DNA from: Sipunculus nudus | Taxonomy: Eukaryota > Annelida > Sipuncula > Golfingiida > Sipunculidae | Length of the DNA stretch: 64,000 nt | Direction of reading: 5' to 3' | NCBI GenBank assembly: GCA_026874595.1 | Contig: CM049307.1 | Location: 52,263,370 to 52,327,369 of the forward strand | Part shown: piece after piece, positions 1 to 50,649 of the stretch | How positions within the stretch are numbered: the stretch's first letter is position 1 | How the letters are laid out: each line of letters starts with the position of its first letter | Position numbers and translations under genes: made by a program | Notes under the pieces: generated by a model | The model's input: the letters and a program-made list of their open reading frames with translations, nothing else | What the model was told of the DNA's origin: nothing | The model's database searches: none

Positions 1-2250
1 GTTATCAACCTCCCACATGTCATATCGGTAAGTAATCCGCAACAAAACAAGTGTATGTATTCGAAAAGAAATATTATGTCATAATTAGCCATGTAATCCT
101 AATAATAGATGTAATTGTAATAAGCTATGCAAACGTAAACCACAGGGCAAATTCAAGCATATTTTTAACACGCCTATATTTGTTTTAGCGTGTAGGGATG
201 GTTCATTTGGTATGGATTGCAAAAACAGTTGTAGATGTCTCGATAGTTCTGAAGTTTGTCAGAAAACGGACGGCAACTGTACACAAAGTGGATGTGCAGC
301 GGGATTCCATGGCCCAGGTTGCCAAAAAGGTGCTGTCAACATTCAAAAATCATATGTAGATTAGACCAAACATAACAGTATTTAGGTTTATAGTATTTAG
401 CCTGAAGAATGTGCTTCAGCTATACTATAAAGCTGGTAGAAGGCGATAATGTACCGTTTCATTTAAGGCAGGCCTTAGGACAATCCCCCTTCGCCGGATG
501 GGAGGTACTGATGCTTAATGGCAACCCTGTGTTGGAACATAGATGTTATACCTTTACTGACAGCCTGGCTGTATGCGTACACTTTAATTGATTATATAAT
601 ATTTATATAAATATATTGTTATTCAATATATGCTAGTTCAATTTAAGATATTTTAAATATATTCCTTTCATTTATGCTGGAAAGAATGCACACAAGGAAA
701 TTATGGTCCAAACTGTGCTGAAGCCTGCTCCAGCTATTGCAAAATACCTGGAGAATGTAGCAAGGCGTCAGGAGACTGTGTTTGTCAAGTTGGCTATCAA
801 CCCCCTACCTGTCACGCTGGTGAGTTGTACTAAAAAACACCTCCCTGCCGGCCTTAAAATCACTAATCGTCACTAAGCTGAGCAGATCTCTGCTTTATAT
901 ATGCTTTCTGCGAGGTGAACTTCCTCCTCTCCCTTTGATTCACTGAACACGTTTAGGAGCTCTCCTTGAGCAGTAATAATATTCCCGGTGTCAAATTTTC
1001 AATGTACTGACGTACTGGACCTCTTGAAAAGAAACAGGCTTCTCTTTCAATTCCTACTATGAACGAAACATCTCCTTCATTTAATATGTTTGTTACAATA
1101 TATTAGTATTACTGCTGATTGTTAAGCATGTTTGGTAGTCTTGCATATAAATGTAGATAAAAGAGCAGAAAATGACACCCTTTTTTCACTTGAAAACACA
1201 CTGGAGTCCTGTGAATTCCTGTATTGTGCCGGATACTTAGTTATTTCCATGAACTGGGTTATTTTAACTGTAACAAGGCCTGCGTGGCTATTGTGCCTGT
1301 GCCGGTTAAATAGTCATTGCAATTGAAATACAAAAGGGAATTTCGGGTTTATCTCTTCCTGTCCTAAAAGACCAGACATGATTATTGTCATGTTAGGGCC
1401 GGATGGTGGTGCTTGAATGATTTCCAACATCTTGAGGAACCAAGCAACTTTGATAAACAATATCAAATTTTAGATCAGAAAAACTAGAACATGTTTACAA
1501 CTATCACATAATTACAACTGTATTAAATGACTTCTGTCATGGTTTTTCAAAAGCATGCAAGGATGGTTCTTTTGGTATGAACTGCTCTGTGACATGCAGA
1601 TGCTTACAAAATGCTGAAGTGTGTGACAAGAAAAACGGCACATGTGCCGAGAGTGGATGCGCTGCTGGATATCATGGATATGACTGCCAGAGAGGTTTGA
1701 TCTCGTTTATGCAATTACTTCAGTCATAAGTGCATAATTTAAAAATCCAGTTGTACTAAAATACCAGTATTATGAAATAAAAATAAGCCGTTTGTATCAA
1801 ATATATGGTCAACCCTGTGAACATTCGTGATTACTTTTTATAATAATTCTATCCGATGAGAAAATTTCAGCAGAGTGTAATCAAATTGTTTTTTATCCAC
1901 GACCCGGTACGGTGTGCCTCAAATATCAAATTACGTTACTGAGGATTACCTTGGTATTACTGTATCATATACGTTTCATATTTTTCTGTTTCCTACACCT
2001 TCCTACATGTACTGTGGGTAAGCCTTTAAATTGATTATTTACCGTTTTATATACGTAAGTATACTCAAATTGTTTATCTACATTTACGGTTTATATGTCT
2101 TTCATCTCCTATCAGAATGTGAAGAGGGACAGTATGGTCCAAATTGTGCGCTTAACTGTTCTAATAACTGTCAAGAACCAGGGAAATGTAACAGATTGTC
2201 CGGTGTATGTGTTTGTAAGGTGGGATATGAACCTCCTACATGCCACAACG
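1..2250 (+). CDS. EGF-like exons of the receptor PTP ectodomain
   Basis: Exons 1-27 (only the tail of a module), 189-329, 685-819, 1554-1694 and 2116-2250. Full modules alternate between a 141-nt type (47 codons, ends like [11 protein letters not shown], eight cysteines) and a 135-nt type (45 codons, ends like GYQPPTC). Each starts in phase 1 and ends in phase 1, so the modules can be duplicated or skipped without a frameshift. The spacing is that of MEGF/SREC-type EGF-like domains, which are extracellular and disulphide-bonded. The strict A-B-A-B alternation suggests past duplication of a two-exon unit. Binding partner unknown. Confidence 0.88.
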
Positions 2251-4553
2251 GTGAGAAAAATATATTAGTGAATGAATTATATTGCACAATCAATGACTAG
2301 CTAGATGTATTAGGGCAGTGTACATATGCCATTTATATTGCAAAATGGCATATCATCAGGTAAAATGAATATATGCAGTTCTGAAGGAAAACCAATCGTG
2401 GAAACGTCAAATGAATAATAAGTGGTGGCTATCATAATATAGCAGAAACATTAAAGCTTGTACTTTATATTTCGGTTACGATTCCTTGAATTATGTATTC
2501 CGATAAAGAGCTATAAAAGTAGGTAGATCAAATGTGAGTACATATTCCATGTGTGCTATTGAAAAGTCGCAGACAAACAGAACAATCAGCAAACACTGGT
2601 CGGAGCGATTGCAGGAGTTGTAACGGCATGTGTCGTCGTCATCATCATCGTTACTTTGGCTGTGTTGCTGATAAGGTAAATAATTAAAGGTTTCTATATG
2701 CTTTTGTTTAAAACGCTTCGTTCCCATATAACTAGCATAAAAATATAATAATATATACATGTATACATAATCATTAATCAATCTATCATTGTACATTATC
2801 TCCACATCCATGTCACCAGGCGTCGAAATGGAGAGTTACCAAAAATTAGATCATTCTACCGCAGTAAATCGAAAAAAGGTAGGGAATGCTGAACATAAAT
2901 ATTAAACCAGTATTCACGTATTATTCATCCCTAATACTTCAGAAATGCTATTATTCGTTCGGTGTTAATATTATAATGCTGACTAATTTGTGGATTCAAG
3001 AGGAAGGGCTACAAACAAGAACCGATACACTGTCTAATGCGTGTAGTAGTCGCAGTAAAAGAACCGATCCTAAAAGACCAGAAAAAGGAGGTGTCAATCC
3101 TTCCGGCAAAACAACTATTGACGACAACACTGTTTATTGTAACATAGAATCGACCTTTGATAAAACCGATATAGACGCTGCCATACTCCCAGATTACATC
3201 AGGTTTATGACAGAAAAGGAAAACGGATTTCAGGAAGAGTACAAGGTAAAACTTACTTTTATATTCCTTTATTTTCGGTTTATCGGAAATTATTATTATA
3301 GTTCATCGTTAGTACTATTGTTTTAATATATTATCATATATTATTAAACTGTTCTCCTCATATCATGATGATAGGTCAATTATTTATTATAGGCGTATTT
3401 TTTAACACGCGCGAATGTAACATTGTTAAAAGAATGAGGAAATAGAAAAGTATTTCGCAAATTTGGAATTTGGTAGACAAATATTTGACCACAGTAAATG
3501 TAACATTTACTTATTTTCTAGAACTGTGTAACCGCTAACGAAAAATAATTTTCATTCATTACCACAATTACAGACTATTTCAAGTGATCCTGTTGCCAAT
3601 ATAGATGTGGGCAAAATAACAGAGAATCGTTCGAAAAATCGGTTTCGCAACATTATTCCATGTGAGAGCACTTTTTATTAGATACCAATGCATCAGCAGA
3701 AACATCCAATTTTAAATGAATAAAACCTCTGTCACTAAACTACTTAAAATACGTTCGTGCTTAATTACATAATCATGTGATGGATTTTAAAATTTACGTA
3801 AATCCAGGGTTTTTTATATGTATTTTGATGACCATCAATTTGCTTAATTCTCCAGATGACCATAATAGGGTGGAACTCCAGAAATACGACGGTCATCCAG
3901 TAAATGGGTATATTAATGCTAGTTACGTACCGGTAAGTTATCATGCATCAATAGACAATTATCAGTCCCGACTGATAGATAACATTATTACAAACTGATA
4001 TGAGCGCTCCTAGCAGTTCGTCATGCTTACGAATAAAATTCACTTTTTTTTTATTTAGGGCTACGAAAACTCCGTCAGATTCATAGCTTCTCAGGGTAAG
4101 GTATCTTAAATAATTACATAATTCTCAAAAAACAACCATATGAGGAATAGCAAATAATATATACTATATGCACGTAGAAACCAAATCTGGCTTTGAGGTA
4201 TTATAGGAAATATAATGACATCTATAATGGTGTAATCATGTGGTGGATTTGAATATGTGCTTCATGTCCCTAGGTCCTTTGGCAGAAACGCTTGACGATT
4301 TTGTCCTGATGCTATGGGAAAATGATGTCCCCCTTGTTGTCATGGTTACTTCCTTTAAAGAGGACAATAAGGTATATGCTTTATTTAAGCCGTTGAGTTG
4401 TCTCTAATTTGGTGAAATACACTCAGACGTTTAGAATCTTATATTTATGATCATTTGCCGAGGTAACGGAGGTTACATACTTTCCGATTGTCATTATCTG
4501 GAACAACCAGACCTATTGAATCTATTTTCTCAGTTCAATGAAATATCAGGACC

Positions 4554-4616
<63 letters not shown>

Positions 4617-7600
4617 ATATGGAATCGAACCCAGAATCTCCCGATTTCCGATGCCGCCTCAATAGATCCCCAGCCCCTCTGTGTATTTGCACATTTTTAT
4701 AGGAACCTCCGAAGTGACATCATCTATATTGGTGCACAAAAAGTTGTTTTTTTTAAAGGCAAAGTGTGAAAAGTACTGGCCAAATGGGAAGCAGCTGTCC
4801 AGGTTTGGCGATGTAACCCTGGCTCTGACTACAACAGAACAACGTCCACATTATGTTAAACGGGAAATCGTTTTATCCAAGGTACATACTAGCTGCTTGA
4901 AAAGACAAAAATGTTATACCCAGCTAAGTCATAAAACCTTTAAAATTGATTCATATATTCCCATATATAATTTATTTTTCTTTGAATCACTAATTCTATA
5001 TATTCTAGTTGGGAATTTAATAGATACTTTTGAAACCACGAAAACGACAAGAGAAATTTTCTCATATTTGTGCCTACCGTATTATGCGCGTTTGGTATGA
5101 TTTGATTAATATATAAATTGTGTCCTCAAAGAATGGTGAAAAGAAGCATCTGACGCATATGCAGTTTACTTCATGGCCAGACCATGGTACCCCTCAAAGT
5201 CCTACAGCATTCCTGGCCTACCACAGAGAGGCAAAACAATTCTACGACAACAAAAGGGGCCCGGTGCTCGTACATGGCAGGTATGGTGTTTGACGTCATG
5301 TTGTATTAATTTTGCGAAAGATTTCATAATAAATTTTACACATGAACTTAAAATCATGTCGGCTCTTGTCCTATTAAAAGTGCTGGAGTTGGTCGGACGG
5401 GGACTTTCATGGCCATGGACTACCTCCTGAAACAAGCGGAACGGGAAGGAAGGATTAGTGTGTACAACTGTGTTATGGACATGAGAACACATCGCGTAGG
5501 AATGGTCCAGAGTCTGGTATGTTAAATTCAACACTTCTTCCAGTACAATTATGGCTACAAAGCTATTTTATGTCGTATAAGTTTCTCGGTTTTGTTTGTT
5601 TGCCAACAGCTAGATGTTGTTTAACATACGCATAAAGAAACAATTTAACAGACACATACCGATTTCAAGTGTTTCTCTCAATAGTACAACTGGTAATATG
5701 GAATAGTATTTTCCCAATATGTTTTTATATTAGACGTAGACTAACGTTTCTAATTTCACTTCTGTTTTGGAAATAATCCAAGGTTATACTTTTTTCTTGA
5801 AGGACCAGTATAAATTTATCCACGAAGCTCTTCTGGAAGCAATACATTGTGGAAAGATTGTTCATGACGTCACACAATTTGAAGGTTGGATAACTGGAAC
5901 CTGTGGGAGAGAACTAAAGAAACAGTTGTTGGTTTGTTTACACCTTAACATGATAAATATATATCAGTTGTACAAGTTAATATTTTTTTAAATCTACCAG
6001 TGGTTTAATTAATTGTCCCCTGACGAATCTATCCCCCACAGATGCTAGAGAAGATGCGACGCGTTCTAACACCGGATGCAACCAAGGCAGGCAGACTCGA
6101 GGAGAACCAAAGGAAGAACCGAAATGCCCAGCTGATTCCACTCGACGAATGGCGTCCCCTGCTCATGACACCCGTCCAAGGTTCAAACGACTACATTAAT
6201 GCTGTCCTTGTGAAGGTACATGTTAATCTTTACTTTTATTGTAAATACCCTTTGAATGAAATAATGCCTTAAGATTGCGTAGCACATTACTTGTGCCGGT
6301 TCCTCTCTGCACATAGGATGTAATACTTTTATTTCAAGTATGCCCAGGAATTTATATTGCCTAGGAAAATCCCTGTACTAATGGAATCCGATCAATAGCA
6401 GGTTAATAAAAGTGTTAAGAAGTTTTTTCTTTAAATTTCTTACATCTTATGGCTTTGTGTGACGCTTTTGTAAATCACAATGGATTCTTAAGGTACCTGT
6501 ATTATCTAAGAAAGGCTGCCTGCTCTTTTTTAATTGTTTTCATTCCACCGCTTCTTCTACCACCCGAAATAAAATAACTATCGACAGATATTTAAAGCCT
6601 TTCAGTTTATATCTTTCAGTCTAACCGGAGAAGTGATGGTATAGTGGTGTGCCAGTCACCAGTTGCGGACACTGTCAATGACATGTGGCGCTTGATTTAC
6701 GATTACGAATGTTCTGTGGTTGTGGCCCTAAACGTGTGCGGAACTGAGGTAAGTTATATTGTTACAAAGGTTTCAATGCACAAGATTCGATTATAAGTTA
6801 CCTATGAAAAACAACAAAGAGGACCAAAACTGTAACTTTTGCCATTCACTGCAAGAACGGGATATAATAATTATATGACCTCTTTTTTTCTCAGGAATAC
6901 ATTGAAAAGTAGTATGTCCTTCGGCATTGTCGTATTTTGACCAGGCTACAATAAATGTGTGGTGTGTAGTCCAACTGAACAATAGCTGATTAACGGATTC
7001 ATCTGTTCTTCAGAGATGGATATACTGAAAAATAATTTACACGTATACAACGGATGATAGGGCATGTAATAATAGCTCTTAGGCTATTTCACTGTGATGA
7101 GCTCTTAAAGTCCTGTTTTCTGTGTTTTAAGAATTATCCAGATTATTTAGGTGGACCGACTTACGGACCCTTCAACGTGACGCTCAAATCAACAACAAAA
7201 AGTGATGACTACGTTAAGTCTGTTCTCACGTACTCCTTACAGGTAGGCTTCAAAAAGTAATTTCTTGACCATTCATGAAGTTAATAGCAAAGTTTCAACG
7301 ATGTAACCAGTCAAGACAAACATATTAACAATTCAAAAGCACCTTTAGTACTGAAAAAAACGAAAACAGTTGTTTCACTAACTCCCGTATATAGACCCCG
7401 ATTATTATTTATAATAATACTAGTGGTTAAACAATTCTACCGTATGGAGATCGAACTTATTTGTGCAAAATTAATGTCCGCTGACAATGATTCTCAAATG
7501 CGTATGTATGCAAATGTATGTGGAAAAAAATAAGGCCCTAGTCCAGTCCAGCAATTTGTTGTTATATGAAATAATGGTAACGATATGGTAAAAACGGTTA

Positions 7601-10249
7601 TTACAGCGTAGAGAGACATTTGAAGCCGTCCACCTAGCGATCTCCGACGAACCAACTGAAGGCAGTCTACCTGACATCGCGACGTTCCTGTCTCTGGTGG
7701 AGGCAACATACCAAGCCCAGCAGGAGGATAGAGCGGGACGGACCCTTATTCACTGCAGGTACGGGTCGACGATTATGTATACAAGCGCAACCAGATCTAT
7801 CATAATGTTACATTTTAACTATATCATTGATTCATTGATTGTTTTAATGACTGATTGATTTGTAATTTATAAAATTTCTATTCAGAACAAAGTTATTATT
7901 ATACATATGCACTTCAAATTTTAAATGAATGTATCCAGATATCGAGAATTAGCAAGCATTTAGGAATCCATCTTATCAATATCTCGTCCTGAAATTTTAC
8001 TTTTCGAAATCCAAGCTGAATGTGTCATGAAGGCACATGTACCATCAAGTAACGACCTGTAGTTACATTCTTGTGTCGTTTTAAGTATAAGTTGAATATT
8101 CTCATGCGAATAACTGAATCGATTCACAACAGATATACAATAAACTAATGACGCATCTTTTAACAGAACCGGTTTGAACCACAGCGGCTTATTCTGCGCA
8201 CTGAGTCAGATTTGTCAGAAAATCAAGGACGAGCAGGAGGTGGACGTGTTTCATGCCGTGAAACAGATCAGGATCAGCCGACCAGAGTTCATCACGTCAC
8301 TGGTCAGTACAGATCTGTTTACCTCTCCATTCCCTACTGGGCCATCAGAGCCCCTCAGTGATTTACTTCTCAAATGATAGCAACAATCGCACATTTTTCA
8401 CATTCACATAACAATAAAACATGACTAGTACATCTTAAATTCAAAGAATGATAAAATATAGTGCATGTCATCTATTATACTTGTATTATTTTATGCTTTT
8501 TTCTTATATAAGCCGTTACGTCATATTGGTCACTAGCACTACACATTCAGCGGTATAGTTTTATTATTTTTCCTATTACACATTGTTATAAGCCTATACC
8601 TGTTATGCGCTTAATTGTTACCTTTTTTACACTGATCATCAATTAATGTGCACACGTTTTCTGTTAAGAATGATTTAATGCATAAGAACGCATGGTAAAC
8701 GATTTTATTTTCTCAGAGGTAGCATAATTGATGAAATTAAAAAAAAATAATCCTTCTCATACTGGTGTCATGATATCTCCCCCGAGTTCCAGGTATCTGT
8801 GTCTTTGAATCATCTAAATCTGCGTTATGCGACCATGAGCATGATTATGTAACCAGTTATCACTGGATCATGTAAAATAGATTTCATTTGTACTGAAAGA
8901 GAACCGTAGCAGGGAAACCATTTAGTCTTCACTCCGTCCAGTCAATAACGTTCATGTTGGTATTTTTAGATGTTGCTCAATATGAAAAACAGGAATTACA
9001 TAAACATGCTCTCCCATGATTTTTGACATTATCTTTTATTAAAGGCTGCGCACAACTCATCAAAGCGTTTCAAGTCGCAAGTGGGTGCCGGCTCTTTAGC
9101 CTGTGGACTAAACTGAGCACCGACCTTGCCCTTGAGTCTACTGTATAACTGGTGGCAAATTAATGTAACATTGTCTGCTCTACTTCAGTGTGATTCTCTG
9201 TACTTTCCATTATATTTTGACAATGAGCTGACAATATATTGCCGAATTACCACAAAAGATATTTTGATAGCTTTTTTTTTAGAAATGCCATTTGGTGTGG
9301 ATATTCCTTGCATCATCACACATAACAATAGCTAGGCTCAGCAGCTTTAACTGGGTGTGGTGTAAGATTTTTTTATTATACCTTTGATCAAGTTATTAGC
9401 TGATCCTTTGGCCATTTATTTGACATATCCTGAGTTTGTTTTCACACACTAATTATTTGTGCTCATAAGCAAATTAGTGTATAAACTTTAAACAATCTCT
9501 GGACACATGTTCACATTTCTGGTATATTTTTATGACAAAACCTATAAACTATCCTGTAAATATTACAATTTTTATCAGAAAATTTTTATAAAAGTACCCT
9601 GTAAATATAAAAAATGTACACTTTTAATACCTACTCATTACTACTCAACATACTTATTACATATAGACCAGCAAAATAGATAATTTGGTAAGTCATCACT
9701 ATATTGTCAGCTGATTGTCCAAATAATAATGGAATGTACAGAATATAACACTGAAATAGACTGAAATAGACCATACATTAATTTGCCGGCTGTTTAGTCT
9801 GGGGACTAAACCGCTGGCACCTAGCTGGTTGTTTAGCCACTGCCTTTCAAGTCACCGGTGAACAAGCACACACATATAAACAATTATCATCATGTCACTT
9901 CTGTATGAGGCTCATACGATAAGCGTGCATGCGCATTCTGAGGTTCAGTCATCGCTTCGGGTTCAAAAATGGAAGAGGATATGTTTGTAGCTACAGACGG
10001 ACCCTGTGACACTCGCCCAAAGATGTATCAATCAACAGATACAAATACTTCCTCATAATCATGTAATTTGTCGGTCCCTCTATTAATATTTCTGTACTAC
10101 AGAAATATCCCTGTAATATATTACCCCCCTAACCTGCAATTCAGTCAAGCCTACTCCTGTCTTGTTTTTCACAGGAGGAGTACCAATGGCTCCACCAAGC
10201 GGCCATGCAGTACATCCAGTCCTTCAGCACGTATGCCAATTTTCGGTGA
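1..10249 (+). CDS. Receptor-type tyrosine phosphatase with EGF repeats, 5' partial, predicted catalytically inactive
   Basis: Single-pass membrane receptor of the tandem-domain PTP family. Exons I reconstruct: 1-27, 189-329, 685-819, 1554-1694, 2116-2250, 2573-2675, 2820-2878, 3001-3245, 3574-3661, 3856-3932, 4059-4095, 4274-4371, 4759-4881, 5132-5280, 5381-5516, 5803-5931, 6042-6215, 6620-6748, 7132-7242, 7607-7758, 8167-8302, 10175-10249. Every junction is GT-AG and in phase, giving 865 codons plus TGA. Order: EGF-like modules, transmembrane helix, basic juxtamembrane stretch, PTP domain D1, PTP domain D2. The N-terminus and any further ectodomain lie upstream of the window. The final TGA overlaps a consensus donor (GTGAGT at 10,246), so a further 3' exon cannot be excluded. 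Introns over 300 bp show no extra coding exon; those at 4,372-4,758 and 8,303-10,174 hold repeats. Confidence 0.9.
2573..2878 (+). CDS. Transmembrane and juxtamembrane exons of the receptor PTP
   Basis: Exon 2573-2675 encodes a polar lead-in followed by a hydrophobic run ([19 protein letters not shown] and on to LAVLLI), a clear single transmembrane helix. Exon 2820-2878 begins with RRRNGELPK and is rich in Arg/Lys, as expected for the cytoplasmic side of a type I membrane protein. The phases (1-2, then 2-1) join these exons cleanly to the EGF exon before and the PTP exon after. Confidence 0.88.
3001..5931 (+). CDS. PTP domain D1 with Cys-to-Gly P-loop substitution
   Basis: Nine exons encode a full-length classical PTP domain. 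Recognisable landmarks in order: GFQEEYK at the N-terminal helix; the pTyr loop as [15 protein letters not shown] (Phe in the usual Tyr position of KNRY); [34 protein letters not shown]; the WPD loop intact as TSWPDHGTP (TGG-CCA-GAC at 5,174-5,182); the P-loop as [13 protein letters not shown]; the Q-loop region MVQSLDQYKFIH. The nucleophile codon at 5,276-5,278 is GGC (Gly) instead of a Cys codon, two bases before the usual intron position inside the motif. Known family chemistry needs this Cys for the thiophosphate intermediate, so D1 should bind but not hydrolyse phosphotyrosine. Confidence 0.9.
4555..4740 (-). mobile_element. tRNA-derived SINE copy with (TA)n tail inside a PTP intron
   Basis: A (TA)n run (4,555-4,612) is followed by an element whose reverse strand carries a pol III B-box-like GGGTTCGATTCC (4,621-4,632). 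The next stretch (GTGTATTTGCACA and GAAGTGA) is nearly identical to the copy at about 12.41-12.56 kb. Two independent copies sharing head and body identify a family. This copy ends about 20-30 bp before the splice acceptor of the D1 exon at 4,759. Confidence 0.6.
6042..10249 (+). CDS. PTP domain D2, degenerate
   Basis: Exons 6042-6215, 6620-6748, 7132-7242, 7607-7758, 8167-8302 and 10175-10249. The domain starts [20 protein letters not shown] and keeps the fold markers NDYINAVLV and YGPFNVTL. The pTyr loop is replaced by [13 protein letters not shown]. The WPD loop position (about 7,637-7,663) reads AISDEPTEG. The P-loop reads [10 protein letters not shown]: the Cys is kept (7,754-7,756) but the essential Arg is His (8,180-8,182). 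Inactive D2 domains are normal in tandem receptor PTPs and usually serve binding or stability. The protein ends in STYANFR. Confidence 0.88.
9079..9850. mobile_element. Long inverted-repeat (fold-back) element in the last PTP intron
   Basis: The segment around 9,079-9,290 is matched in reverse complement by about 9,640-9,850. Shared blocks include GGCAAATTAATGTA, GTACATTCCAT-like, ACAATGAGCTGACAATATA-like and the end motif TTTAGCCTGTGGACTAAA, which is itself nearly palindromic. Arms are about 200 bp and diverged, around a roughly 350-bp AT-rich middle. No transposase reading frame is seen, so this is probably a non-autonomous DNA transposon. It accounts for much of the 1.9-kb intron. Confidence 0.6.
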
Positions 10250-38512: not shown

Positions 38513-38632
38513 TACATGTACATATTTATGAATTGAATATCCCTCATTCTTATACAAAGTTGCTCTTGTAATCATTACCAACACGTTTTGGTGATAGTTT
38601 TGTCATTGTTTATTATAAGTGTCTAAACTAAC

Positions 38633-38908
38633 CACATAGTTGAACTTGATCACATCTCCCCCAGTCACGGACAGGAGGGTTGTCTTTTGGAAAACACAAG
38701 AGGTACCCACTCCGACTGGGGTCACGACAGTAGTTGGACGCTTTACGCAAGTCTCCCTCAGGGAAACGGTCCGCTGAATAATCGCGTAACTGTGGATACC
38801 AGTAGATACACGGCGTGTCATTAACTGTACCTCGCACTGCTTTATCAATCCTTGAACGCTTCCCCTGATACCACTTCCCTGTCGGGTCATTATACCTGCA
38901 GGAGGAAT
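38633..38908 (-). CDS. Receptor B kringle domain
   Basis: A single 276-nt exon encodes a whole kringle: six cysteines, core YQGKRSRIDK, PCIYWYPQ, NYCRDPSRSGYLLCF, and closing WGRCDQVQLC. Kringles are triple-disulphide loops that bind proteins, lysine side chains or membranes. The usual WCYT-like box reads LCFP here, so it is less canonical than that of receptor A (WCFT). The frame is intact. Confidence 0.85.
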
Positions 38909-39321
38909 CTGTAACAAGACACAATGGACGCATAGTAAGAAAGGAGCAGGCTTCACATGCTAAGAGCGGCTGTCGAAAAGCTAATATTTCAAAGGTCTAT
39001 CAGGTTTGTGAAATATGATTAAATATTTATACTAAATATGATAAAACATTGATACTAAATCGTGAGCAGATACTGTTATGTTAGAAAATATATATACATA
39101 TTTACATCTTAGTGTATGTTCTTTTAAATTTTAAAAGTGTTTCATATGGCAGAGTTCAAAAATAATATGGGTTCAGTCTATTCTTAAACGTATCAAGGAC
39201 TGATGCCTCGCACTTCTGTTGCAAAATAAATGTTTCGAGTACGCTGAGAATGCAACACTACATGGGATTGACGTAGAAAAGTATAAACACACTTAAGACC
39301 ATTATAAAATAGTCGGCATAC

Positions 39322-44310: not shown

Positions 44311-46850
44311 TTGAAAGTTAATGATTTATCGAAATGAAAGAGAAAATTACACTATATTAATAATAAAAATGAAACTAGATATATCTTTGACCGATGTTCT
44401 ATTCAATTATAAAATTTTAGAAGAACGAGACCGGTTCATATATATGGACAGAATGGATCGAGACACATTAGTGACAATTTATAAGTCTAATATTTTGTCT
44501 TTTAGAAATGCTGGTAATTTTTCTACAAAAGCTATACTAGACTTGAATGTGAAACAGCTGCCGTATTCGGTTTCATTTTGGCGAAGAGAGTGTATACCAT
44601 TAAATACAGCATAAAATTGAGGTCAAAAATGAAATGATTATACATATTCCTTAATTTTATTATTATTATTTTTGCGACCTACATATGTTAACGGGGTATC
44701 TTTCATCACAGGGCATCAAGTTAACCTGGGGAAACCTCGCTTGTGTGATATAATTGAGCTGTTTCGTGCAGCCGAAAACCGCTCTGCCGCGAAGGGTTCT
44801 CTTAAAGTGTTATACAAACATTACTCCAGCCCGGATCATGTAACCTCTGATGTGATTATTTAGGCACGTACAACCATAACTATCTAAATAAACATTACAA
44901 CATTTGCATTGTCCATAATTATTATACGCAACATTTTTTATTTTAAGTGGAAATAAAATGACTCCTCCTTGGTACAGACTGAATGTTCTCATTCTTGAAC
45001 CACGCTTTCTCAAATTTACATGCAAGATGATAATTTGATGTTTGCTTAATTTCTTTTTAAATTTGAATAAATGACCTTGATAGTGTACTGGTACTACAGA
45101 ATACAGCATAATATCGGTTAAAATATCTTAACCGCATGGTGTACATATCCGATTAATGTTTCATTTTACTCTTTTACTGTTCAGAATAGCATGCACTTCT
45201 GCTCTTTATTTGACTTTAAATATAAATGAAATTTGTATAATTTTAGCAAAGGTAAATGAGCTTAGTCACATATTTATATATTTTTATATATTAGTATTTA
45301 AATGATACTTTCAAATGCCCCATATATTTGAAATGGTAAAATACAGTATGCATATTGTTGAATAAAACAGGGCCTTGAATGCTCATTATAATTCTAAAAA
45401 TTAATTATCAGTCCAGATTAAAAAGGTAATAATAATATCTACCATTATCATAACATGGATAAGGCCAATAATTTTTACCATGCACAGCTAAAACCGGGAC
45501 GTTTCATGCTTTTGTATATGAGACCTATGTGCTTTCACCAAACCTAAAAAAGTGGCATTGAATGGCACCGGTTGCGGAGATTTCAAAATTTCGTTTCAAT
45601 ATTCTTTTACCTTATTTGGTTCAAACTAATTATCTTAAACACTATGAGGGAATTACATTAAACTGTCTCTCAAGATGTTTTTGACGTATTTTTTTCTGAC
45701 TGATGAATACGTATAATTATTCAAGTTTAACATGCTAGATATTAACATTGGTTACAATGACGTTATATGGGCAATACTAGTGGAATTAATAGAAAATAGG
45801 CTCTGTTAGCCATAATAATTTCTTGGAATCACCTTGTTGTTAAGTTAAACTCTCTGGTTATCTTTTAGAAATGTACTTTTTTCCTATGTTAATCGAGGTT
45901 TGTAAATGATTTACTAAAAATAAAACATTCTTGTTTCATTTTAAAATTTTTACTTCTGCTTTACTCTCTTTCTCTCTCTCTTTGTCTGTCTGTCTCTCTG
46001 TCTCTCTGTGCCTCTCTCTCAATCTATCATGTTTATGGATCTGCTCAATTAGCACAGGCAGCGAATACACCATGCAATTCAGGTCAACGTTATTGCAGGA
46101 CTTATCTCATGAATGGTCTAACACAGACCTTTGATCCCGAGTAAATCAGTGGTAAATTTGTAGAATAAGTCAGGTTTTATAGTGTTTATAAATCAAAATA
46201 CGTTCACCCATGTCCTTAAGACGTTATATTTTTCATTTAAGGAAACACATTAACATGTAGATGTGCAAACAAAAAAAACAGTAAATAACAGACATACGTG
46301 TTTAAGTATAAAATAGTTAAATGTGCATTTAAGGTATATATGAAACGTCGTCAAGCCGAGATGTGGTGAAACCCGAAATCGTCCAGCTCAATTATAATTC
46401 TGTCATAATCAGGCATGTCATTTATGCGAAATCAATTATATTATGTTTGTTTGGCATATTTACGTGATTAATTTATACAATTTAAAATATTCCCCCACCG
46501 TGCGAATTTGTTTGAAATAGCGGGTCAGTAATACCTGTCTATCAGAAGGTATTGAAACTCATATGAAAACATCGGTATCCGGACAGTTTTTTTTTTTTTT
46601 TCATACATCTACAAATTGTAAAGAATGTTTAAATTATAGTTTTATACACGTTTATACGATTGAATTGAACCTCTTTATCGTTCTAATGGACAGGCGATAC
46701 ACATCCTGGCCGGATGCTGTCTCGCCGGGCTACGTCTCAAAGGCGCCGCTGCGGTTAAGTAGGCGGGGCGTCTCAGGGAACTGCGTCGTAGCGAGCAATG
46801 GAATCAGTCATACGTCCTATCGAGATGCGTCGTACTGAGATGAACCTTTT
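44311..46850. other. Intergenic; one unassigned 97-codon frame
   Basis: Frame 44,321-44,614 (+) reads MIYRNERENYTILIIK and continues with charged residues; no family recognised. A small CT/GT-rich patch lies at about 45,965-46,020. Otherwise AT-rich without evident genes. Confidence 0.3.
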
Positions 46851-47789: not shown

Positions 47790-49330
47790 ATGAAAGGTGA
47801 TTATTCTACCTTGGTATTATATGCAAGGAAATATGTGCGCACAAGCCTTTTAAAGCTCTTTAGGTTGTTGGCATTTTTTAGTTTTGTCGGAAGGCTATTC
47901 CATAGAACACTGCTTGCGTTAAAGGATGAGGTTTTAAGGATTTCTGTGCGTGGTTTCGGAATATTAACATTGGAATTAACTGATAAACGGGTGTTATACT
48001 GATAAACATCATAGGTAAAAGTAAAATTCTTATTAAGATAAGAATTGCGAGTCCATTGATACATTTATATGTCAATATCGATAAAAAATGCATGTATCGT
48101 TGCTCTATGTTCATCCATCCATTGTCATGGATAATTGCCAAGCTGCTGTGCGAGTGATCATAAATGCCTGAAATAATTCTGGCTGCATGGCCCTGAAGCT
48201 GCTGAATCGGAAGACGAAATGTATGAGCACAATTTCCCAAACAGTAAGGCCATAGTCAATATTTGGTTGAATGAACGCATGATAATATGTATTTAAGTAT
48301 TTATTTGGCAGTAATATGCTAATTCGGTGCAGTAGTCCAATCTTCGAGCATAATTTCTTTATTACTTCTTTTGTCCGATTCTTCCATGAAAGATGACGGT
48401 CAATTTCAATGCCCAAATGGCGAACATCATCAACACTCACTATAATACAATTACCTACACTAATTGATAGGTTAAATCAGACCTACGTTGTTTGGTGTGT
48501 ATTAACATCGAAGCTGATTTTTGGGCATTTATTGAAAGCTTATTATTACGCATCCAATTAACTACATGGGATAGGCCAGTCTGAAGTTAGTTTTGGGCAG
48601 TAATAACGTCAGGGCCGTTTACATATATCGTGATATCATCGGCATAGATAGAGCATTTTGCTCAAGGGACATTAGCAGGTAAGTCGTTCAGATTTATTAA
48701 AAAGAGTATTGGACCGAGGACTGTGCCTTGAGGTACACCTGTTGTTATAGTTTTTACATCCGAAATAGTATTTGCGAAGGTTACATATTGTTTGCGATCA
48801 TTTAAATATGAATGAAAACACTTTAGAGAGGTCTTATAAACTCCATATTGTTCTAATTTGTTCAAAAGAATACTGTGTGTTAGTGAATCAAAGCCCTTTT
48901 TAACATCGAGAAAACACGCGGTATTAACATTGCCCTGATTAATAATAGTGAGCCAGTTGTCAACTAAATGATGAAGAGCAGTTTGAGTGCAGTTATTTGA
49001 CAGGAAAGCAGTTTGTTCAGTTGAGAGGAGATCATGATTCCGTAAATAAGCAATAAAAGAAATTTTGACGTGTTTTTCAAGAACTTTGGCAATATTACAC
49101 GTAACAGATATAGGACGGTAATTACCTATTTTGCTTAATTTACTCTTACCTTTATATATTGGGACTACTCGTGCAAATTTCCAGTCATGGGGAACTACTC
49201 CAGTAGTAAGAGACTGGTCAAAAATATGCTTAAGAGAATTAGCGAGAAGATCTGCGGAATCACAAAGCAAAATGCCAGAAATATTTAAAAGGTCAAGGCC
49301 AGGTTTGCTTTTCAGTTGCAGTTGCAGATG
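47790..49330 (-). mobile_element. 5'-truncated non-LTR (LINE) retrotransposon, reverse transcriptase
   Basis: Reverse-strand translation gives the LINE RT order: SGILLCDSADLLANSL, GVVPHDWKFARVVPIYKG, IGNYRPISVTCNIAKVLEK, LDVKKGFDSLTHSILL, TGVPQGTVLGPILFLI, then after an in-frame TGA (about 48,662) the catalytic SIYADDITIYVNG (YADD at 48,635-48,646). C-terminal parts (HLGIEIDRHLSWKNRTKEV; LWNSLPTKLKNANNLKSF) follow in other frames. Nonsense and frameshift breaks show it is dead. No endonuclease domain upstream, so it is 5' truncated; 47.39-47.79 kb may be its 3' UTR. Confidence 0.85.
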
Positions 49331-49509
49331 ATTAAGAACAGTAAGGCTATTAATTGGTGCAAACTCATATTTAAAATTGTCTTTGTTTTACTTAGGATTT
49401 TTTTTTTAATATACTGTTTTGTAGTTCATGCAAAGTCAGCGAAGCCTGAAGAAGTGACACTGATAGCAGTGACATTGCCTATTCCTCCTCCATCGCCATC
49501 CCAGAATTC

Positions 49510-50600
49510 CAATTCCAATGCCAGCCCAGACTTATTTGAGCATGATGTCTTCGCCTCCAGGCCCAGAATTTTCTGAGCATGTTGTCCCGGCCTCGAGCCG
49601 AGACTTCGAGCATGCTGTAATTTTCCAGACCGAGACTTCGAGCGTGCCGTCTCTGCCTAAAGGCCAGAATTTTCTGAGCATGCTGTCTCTACCTCAAACC
49701 CAGACATCGAGCATGCTGTCTCCGCCTCCAGCCCAGACTTCGAGCTTGCTGTCTCCTCCTCGAGCCTAGACATATCTGAGCATGTGTCACCGCCTCCAGC
49801 CCAGACTTCGAACATGCTCTCCCTGTTTCGAGCCCAGAATTTGAGCATGCTGTCTCCCCCTCCAGCCAAGACTTCTCTGAGCATGCTGTCTCCACCTCAA
49901 GCCCAGACATCGAGCATGCTGTCTCCGCCTCCAGCCCAGACTTCCAGCATGCTGTCGCCATTTTGAGCCCAGACTTTGAGCATGCTGTCTCCGCCTCCAG
50001 CCCAGACTTCTCTGAGCATGCTGTCTCCAGCATAAGCCCAGACTTCGAGCATGCCGTTGCCGTATCGAGCCAAGACTTCGAGCATGCTGTCTCCGTCTCC
50101 AGCCCAGACTTTGAACATGCTGTCGCCGTTTCGAGCAAAGACTCTAGGCATGCTGTCTCCGCCTCCAGCCCAGACTTCTCTGAGCATGCTGTCTCATCCA
50201 TCAGCCCAGACTTCGAGCTTGCTGTCGCCATTTCGAGCCCAGACTTTGAGCATGCTGTCTAGCTCCGCCTCCAGCCCAGACTTCTCTGAGCATGCTGTCC
50301 CAACCTCCAGTCCAGACTTCGAGCATGCTGTCTCCGTCTCCAGCCCAGACTATGAGCATGCTGTCGCTGTTTCGAGCCCAGACTCTAGGCATGCTGGCTC
50401 CGCCTCTAGCCCAGACTTCTCTGAGCATGCTGTCTCCTCCTCCAGCCCAGACTTCGAGCATGTTGTCTCCAGCCTACAGCTTAGACTTCCAGAATAATTT
50501 CTCCGAACCCAGCCCAGACTTCCAGCATACTGTCTCTGCCTCCAGCCCAGACGTCTCTGAGTATGCTGCCTCCGACTCTAGCCCAGACTTTGGGCAAGCT
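49510..50600. repeat. 33/36-bp minisatellite
   Basis: About 1.1 kb of tandem units around GAGCATGCTGTCTCCGCCTC + CAGCCCAGACTTC. Units are 33 bp, or 36 bp where CTCTGAGCATG replaces CGAGCATG. I count at least 18 exact GCATGCTG cores. Because both lengths are multiples of three and units rarely contain stops, long frames open on both strands (up to 180 codons at 49,689-50,231, reading ETACSKSGLE; others reading SSPDFEHAVS or PPAQTSSMLS). These frames are a repeat artefact unless transcription evidence says otherwise. GC-rich relative to the surroundings. Confidence 0.9.
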
Positions 50601-50649
50601 GTCTCCGACTCCAGTCATAAAAGGGACATTTGCCCACAACAGCTTTAAT

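Follow-up and report, generated by a model that had tools for sequence, protein, structure and literature searches.

A receptor tyrosine phosphatase gene of Sipunculus nudus encodes Gly instead of Cys at the nucleophile position of its first phosphatase domain (D1). This difference is more than chance variation between copies, because 52 of the 53 PTP P-loops that we read in the same genome, a sample of copies that are not fully independent of each other, carry the Cys. The gene lies on the forward strand within the first 8.4 kb of the window, by which we mean the whole 64,000-nucleotide stretch that was analysed (C2:52263370-52327369; the assembly spans 1.43 Gb and has 153 contigs). Its second phosphatase domain (D2) appears to be disabled as well, as in the rest of the family.

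Gene structure

The 14 intracellular exons (3001-8379) join into a single open frame, and each of the 13 introns between them has GT-AG ends (Table 1). Behind an EGF-like part come a hydrophobic segment of 25 residues, a juxtamembrane exon and the PTP domains D1 and D2. When the four EGF-like segments are joined, Pfam EGF_2 recognises the last one only (25.1 bits; cut-off 22.1); the other three are EGF-like by eye. Upstream of the window (locus L064) there are further EGF-like segments and a kringle about 1.5 kb before the window start (Pfam, 39.4 bits; cut-off 34.3), all of which may or may not be part of the gene. The last D2 exon may end near 8305 instead, followed by a further splice.

Table 1. 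Features of the receptor phosphatase gene (positions in the window).
Feature	Position	Strand	Basis
Four cysteine-rich EGF-like segments	190..2250 (about 190-329, 685-820, 1553-1694, 2117-2250)	+	frame translation
Hydrophobic, presumed transmembrane segment	2599..2673	+	read by eye in translation
Juxtamembrane exon	3001..3245	+	spliced frame
D1 phosphatase domain, 8 exons	3574..5931	+	AG/GT borders, open; Pfam PF00102
D1 exons	3574-3661, 3856-3932, 4059-4095, 4274-4371, 4759-4881, 5132-5280, 5381-5516, 5803-5931	+	
D1 exon with WPDHG (WPD loop) and VHG-S (P-loop, first half)	5132..5280	+	
D1 exon with SAGVGRTG (P-loop, second half) and VQS (Q-loop, start)	5381..5516	+	
Nucleophile codon GGC (Gly), not TGC/TGT (Cys)	5276..5278	+	
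D2 phosphatase-like domain, 5 exons	6042..8379 (6042-6215, 6620-6748, 7132-7242, 7607-7758, 8167 to about 8379)	+	

On a splice version with one extra residue at 3661/3856 and the same Cys region, PF00102 scores 243.5 bits for D1 (its best family, E 3e-72) and 128.3 bits for D2 (cut-off 20.9), and DSPc stays below its cut-off for D1 (25.7 bits; cut-off 33.5). On the same version, the alignment of D1 to the first domain of RPTP-sigma (2fh7) covers residues 1-235 of 247 and scores 207.7 bits; the value of 4.6e-112 refers to the whole two-domain 2fh7 chain and not to D1 alone. Tandem D1-D2 domains of PF00102 behind a presumed membrane segment are the layout of a classical receptor PTP. The nucleophile Cys of CX5R, which such a receptor has in D1, is missing.

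The remainder of the window holds a kringle-like exon at 38628-38996 on the reverse strand, which scores 24.5 bits in Pfam, short of the 34.3 cut-off, and perhaps belongs to another receptor gene. A LINE-like reverse-transcriptase fragment lies at 48662-49384 on the reverse strand (RVT_1, 64 bits). The reverse-strand stretch 48114-48476 has no Pfam match and may be linked to this fragment. At 49521-50614 a 33-base minisatellite repeats about 32 times, and several of its frames are open.

The missing nucleophile

Positions 5270-5280 read GTA CAT GGC AG, followed by GT, and the exon at 5381 opens with T GCT GGA GTT GGT CGG. Both exons have AG/GT borders, and splicing them yields a D1 P-loop of 11 residues with Gly at the nucleophile position. 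The initial annotation had reported this Gly codon in the spliced P-loop, and direct reading bears it out. It was also right that the domain is open and that the WPD loop, the Q-loop and the P-loop Arg are kept. The spliced open frame contains KNRF...YDHNRV, WPDHG, GVGRTG with its Arg and VQSLDQ with its Gln, which we take to be the pTyr, WPD, P- and Q-loops, respectively. The pTyr loop (15 residues) is spliced at 3661/3856, which yields PYDHNRV and no additional Cys; its Phe is common to each paralogue in which exon b was found.

A tblastn search across the window for a second WPD/P-loop exon that could supply the Cys returned a weak chance match at 46683 alone (E 0.59). Hence, we reject an alternative Cys-bearing D1 exon in the window. 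The signature of D1 is HGX5R, an alteration of HCX5R of the kind that marks a pseudophosphatase, and the combination of Gly at the nucleophile with a kept Arg is the STYX-type (Cys-to-Gly) pattern.

PTPs turn over their substrates through a cysteinyl-phosphate, and without the Cys none forms. The loss of turnover claimed for D1 when the Gly was first noticed follows from this chemistry. It is reasonable to infer that D1 may bind phosphotyrosine without turnover, because the P-loop backbone, the Arg and the loops that frame the phosphotyrosine are unchanged in sequence.

The second domain

The D2 P-loop of the window gene (10 residues) keeps its Cys, has His in place of the CX5R Arg and is accompanied by no WPD motif. 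We examined 19 paralogues for the same residues. The Cys is kept in all 17 in which exon m was found, and the Arg is absent from all 15 in which exon n was found, its position being taken by His, Asn or Glu. D1 should then be the only candidate enzyme in the receptors of this family. Because D2 is already disabled across the family, the loss of the D1 Cys should silence the whole receptor. The initial annotation missed the disabled D2, which should extend the predicted inactivity from D1 to the entire receptor.

Copies in the genome

The gene is one of many receptor tyrosine phosphatases in this genome, a large family that is clustered in part. Since 150 of 496 candidate PTP places were scored, the P-loop tally is a sample of the genome; some of its copies are near-identical and some come from other subfamilies. 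There were 59 sources, the window and 58 of 63 loci, the others (L005, L007, L008, L029, L030) having been excluded at the outset because they overlapped or were irrelevant. A PTP P-loop was obtained from 53 of these: 47 have TGC, five have TGT and one, the window gene, has GGC. The six sources without a PTP reading are L004, L006, L023, L024, L056 and L063. For four of them tblastn shows a Cys that stands outside the tally (L004, L006 as VLVMC, L023 and L024), and L056 and L063 are unread.

A genome-wide search for the exact pattern P-[V/I/M]-x-V-H-G-S followed directly by gt, which misses Gly copies of the form P-T-x-V-H-G that is common in this family, found two places: the window gene and C8:51817241 (L030). 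The latter has no PTP frame around the match, and we reject it as a second Gly P-loop; the match is due to chance.

Several other copies have unusual loops. In L016 the exon 3648-3785 reads WPDSG for WPDHG in a D1 that otherwise bears its Cys. L006 (C3:50478927-50482601) is a PTP pair in which the D1 P-loop is VLVMC, the His before the Cys being lost, and W-S-E replaces WPD; this locus is another candidate pseudophosphatase. L001-L008, at five places on C3, C5, C9 and C10, have paired PTP matches in or beside one another in an intronless open frame of 902-1347 aa. These places lack the multi-exon structure of the family and could be retrocopies; atypical loops, for example WPE, occur in some of them.

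Origin of the glycine

Among the paralogues that were fetched, the nearest is L065 on C10 (74% identical in D1), followed by L013, L016 and L014 on C2 (67-68%). These four and seven further paralogues, all 11 that were compared, carry TGC. Because the nearest paralogues all have TGC, the simplest account would be one transversion (T to G) in the lineage that leads to the window gene alone. The window branch is placed beside L065 with weak support (51) and it is long: in one paralogue set, its four nearest copies lie at a dS of 1.36-1.66. For the pair with L013, dN is 0.18 and dS is 1.46.

Paralogue DNA matches (66-94% identity) are centred on exons and most introns are unaligned; the exceptions are the short introns 5281-5380 and 5932-6041, which paralogue matches cross. 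We reject gene conversion as the source of the Gly. No other P-loop that was read has Gly, and the P-loop exons are at most 84% identical to those of other copies, the highest value being that of the last D2 exon (94%, L011). There, window positions 8156-8304 match L011 2811-2959, with the other aligned exons at 59-76%. A small gene conversion confined to this last exon is possible.

Constraint or decay

To compare branches we used a custom codon model (MG94-type, F3x4) on an IQ-TREE codon tree. For D1 with ten sequences, the window omega is 0.219 versus 0.165 with all codons (LRT 1.21; neutrality LRT 26.3) and 0.213 versus 0.165 with the nucleophile codon removed (LRT 0.97; neutrality LRT 27.0). 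With 12 sequences and the nucleophile codon removed it is 0.234 against a background of 0.166, which is not significant (LRT 1.98); an omega of 1 is rejected (LRT 28.0) and the profile limits are about 0.15-0.37. For D2 the values are 0.255 and 0.188 (LRT 1.18; neutrality LRT 19.1). The window omega thus exceeds the background in four of four fits and significantly in none. Relaxed constraint on the window D1 is not supported, as none of the three D1 fits reaches significance. Control branches in the 12-sequence D1 fit have omegas of 0.191 (L065), 0.174 (L013), 0.187 (L016) and 0.229 (L014), and none is significantly off the background.

One of these controls looks like a decaying copy. L014 (C2:52028500-52038499) is a clustered paralogue; the 10 kb examined yielded none of its D2 exons j-m, and it has five private changes at conserved D1 sites, for example W105L and F75S. 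Its branch rejects neutrality too (LRT 7.87, 12-sequence D1 fit). Therefore, the test is blind to recent loss. The fits show that the window lineage has long been constrained and say nothing on whether this constraint persists. The window gene is not a long-dead copy, and the data cannot date the Gly. By arithmetic on the 12-sequence fit, the omega is compatible with a neutral final stretch of about 8% of the branch according to the estimates, and of roughly a quarter at most. D1 sites that are otherwise invariant carry four changes in the window copy (A65S, L93F, C188G, F275L) and 0-5 in each of the 11 other sequences, hence there is no excess.

The initial annotation had argued against general decay and had named dN/dS on D1 as a check. 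An open frame, intact splice sites, an omega of about 0.2 with neutrality rejected and a single active-site change uphold the argument as far as long-standing decay is concerned. It does not extend to a recent loss, since the decayed-looking L014 rejects neutrality in the same test.

Discussion

The explanation that we propose, tentatively and as a reading that falls just short of probable, is a binding-only receptor that arose by a Cys-to-Gly change (T to G) in an EGF-like receptor PTP whose D2 was already dead. The single change on the gene's own lineage would have removed the D1 nucleophile and with it the formation of cysteinyl-phosphate. With D2 disabled beforehand in the family, no phosphatase activity would be left in the receptor. 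The ectodomain would still sense its ligand, and D1, with its pTyr loop, WPD loop, P-loop Arg and Q-loop intact, could bind the substrates of Cys-bearing sister receptors or compete for them. If the allele is fixed, the receptor may act as a decoy or adaptor that draws ligand or substrate away from these sisters. For such a receptor we infer expression, fixation, phosphotyrosine binding and a decoy role. Several observations count against a maintained receptor: the long window branch may mostly predate the Gly, the branch test does not see recent loss, the window omega lies above the background in every fit, if never significantly, and the Gly is confined to one copy instead of being clade-wide. 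A fixed, double-dead decoy within the expanded EGF-like family, with a phosphotyrosine-ready pocket that serves as a natural substrate trap against active sisters, is rather unlikely in our judgement.

The Gly could also be a recent loss of function, either a segregating allele or the first decay step of a redundant copy, without any selected role in binding. We consider this quite possible, if somewhat less than probable. It agrees with a single-base change that is unique among the 53 P-loops read and that sits in a large redundant family, and in a very young change all other active-site residues are expected to be kept, as they are. The clustered L014, with its missing D2 exons and altered D1 sites, passes the same neutrality test. 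The intact frame, splice sites and other catalytic motifs speak against such a loss, as does an omega that is not significantly raised, but all of these are compatible with a young change, too.

An error in base calling or assembly is improbable. GGC and TGC are one base apart and there is a single assembly; however, a chance error would rarely strike the nucleophile codon, and neither the frame nor the splice sites near it are disrupted. An error in the form of a mosaic with another copy is opposed by the lack of Gly in every other P-loop read. PTP turnover in the absence of a nucleophile at this position is not known to us. A D1 that is still active through another nucleophile or a changed chemistry is hardly credible: the remaining catalytic loops are kept, but Gly has no side chain, and STYX with its Gly is inactive (PMC8269279).

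The proposed binding-only receptor can be set beside known systems. Laboratory Cys-to-Ser substrate-trapping mutants, the kind of protein to which the initial annotation had likened D1, have the nucleophile removed and the binding loops kept. The window D1 resembles them in both respects, but its change is natural and to Gly, and trapping by it is putative. The receptor PTPs PTPRN and PTPRN2 (IA-2, IA-2beta) keep the catalytic Cys. They differ from the window gene in that their inactivity comes from altered catalytic-loop residues; inactivity as such is reported for them (PMC7320164) and predicted for the window gene. The D2 domain of an ordinary RPTP is an inactive PTP fold that has been associated with regulation as well as with substrate recognition and redox sensing (PMC7320164). 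D2 of the window gene would be another such fold, but in ordinary RPTPs D1 is usually active, whereas here both domains appear disabled.

The RPTP PTPRU still binds substrates although both of its PTP domains are inactive, and it has been proposed to compete with active paralogues for them; it is described as unique amongst RPTPs for its two pseudophosphatase domains (PMC7320164). The window gene is predicted to share this pair of inactive domains. However, D1 of PTPRU keeps its Cys and is inactive because of rearranged loops, whereas the window D1 has no Cys and normal-looking loop sequences. The ectodomains differ as well, being of the R2B type (vertebrate R2B receptor phosphatase) in PTPRU and EGF-like in the window gene. 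STYX naturally has Gly at the catalytic Cys position and is inactive, and a Gly-to-Cys change restores its activity (PMC8269279). The parallel means that a natural Gly at this site occurs, and it carries no inference to substrate trapping. STYX is a dual-specificity phosphatase, whereas the window D1 is part of a receptor, is of the classical PTP type and does not belong to the STYX family. Within open-access literature, covered by titles and the starts of abstracts, we found no title that concerns a D1 with Cys-to-Gly in an RPTP.

If the Gly is fixed, the simplest route, losing just the nucleophile, would have taken the window gene to a PTPRU-like end state. The genome also has dozens of sister copies that bear the Cys, which would allow a direct test of whether inactive receptors evolve as decoys that act against paralogues of their own. 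The same family could show how often the death of D1 is tolerated once D2 is already dead.
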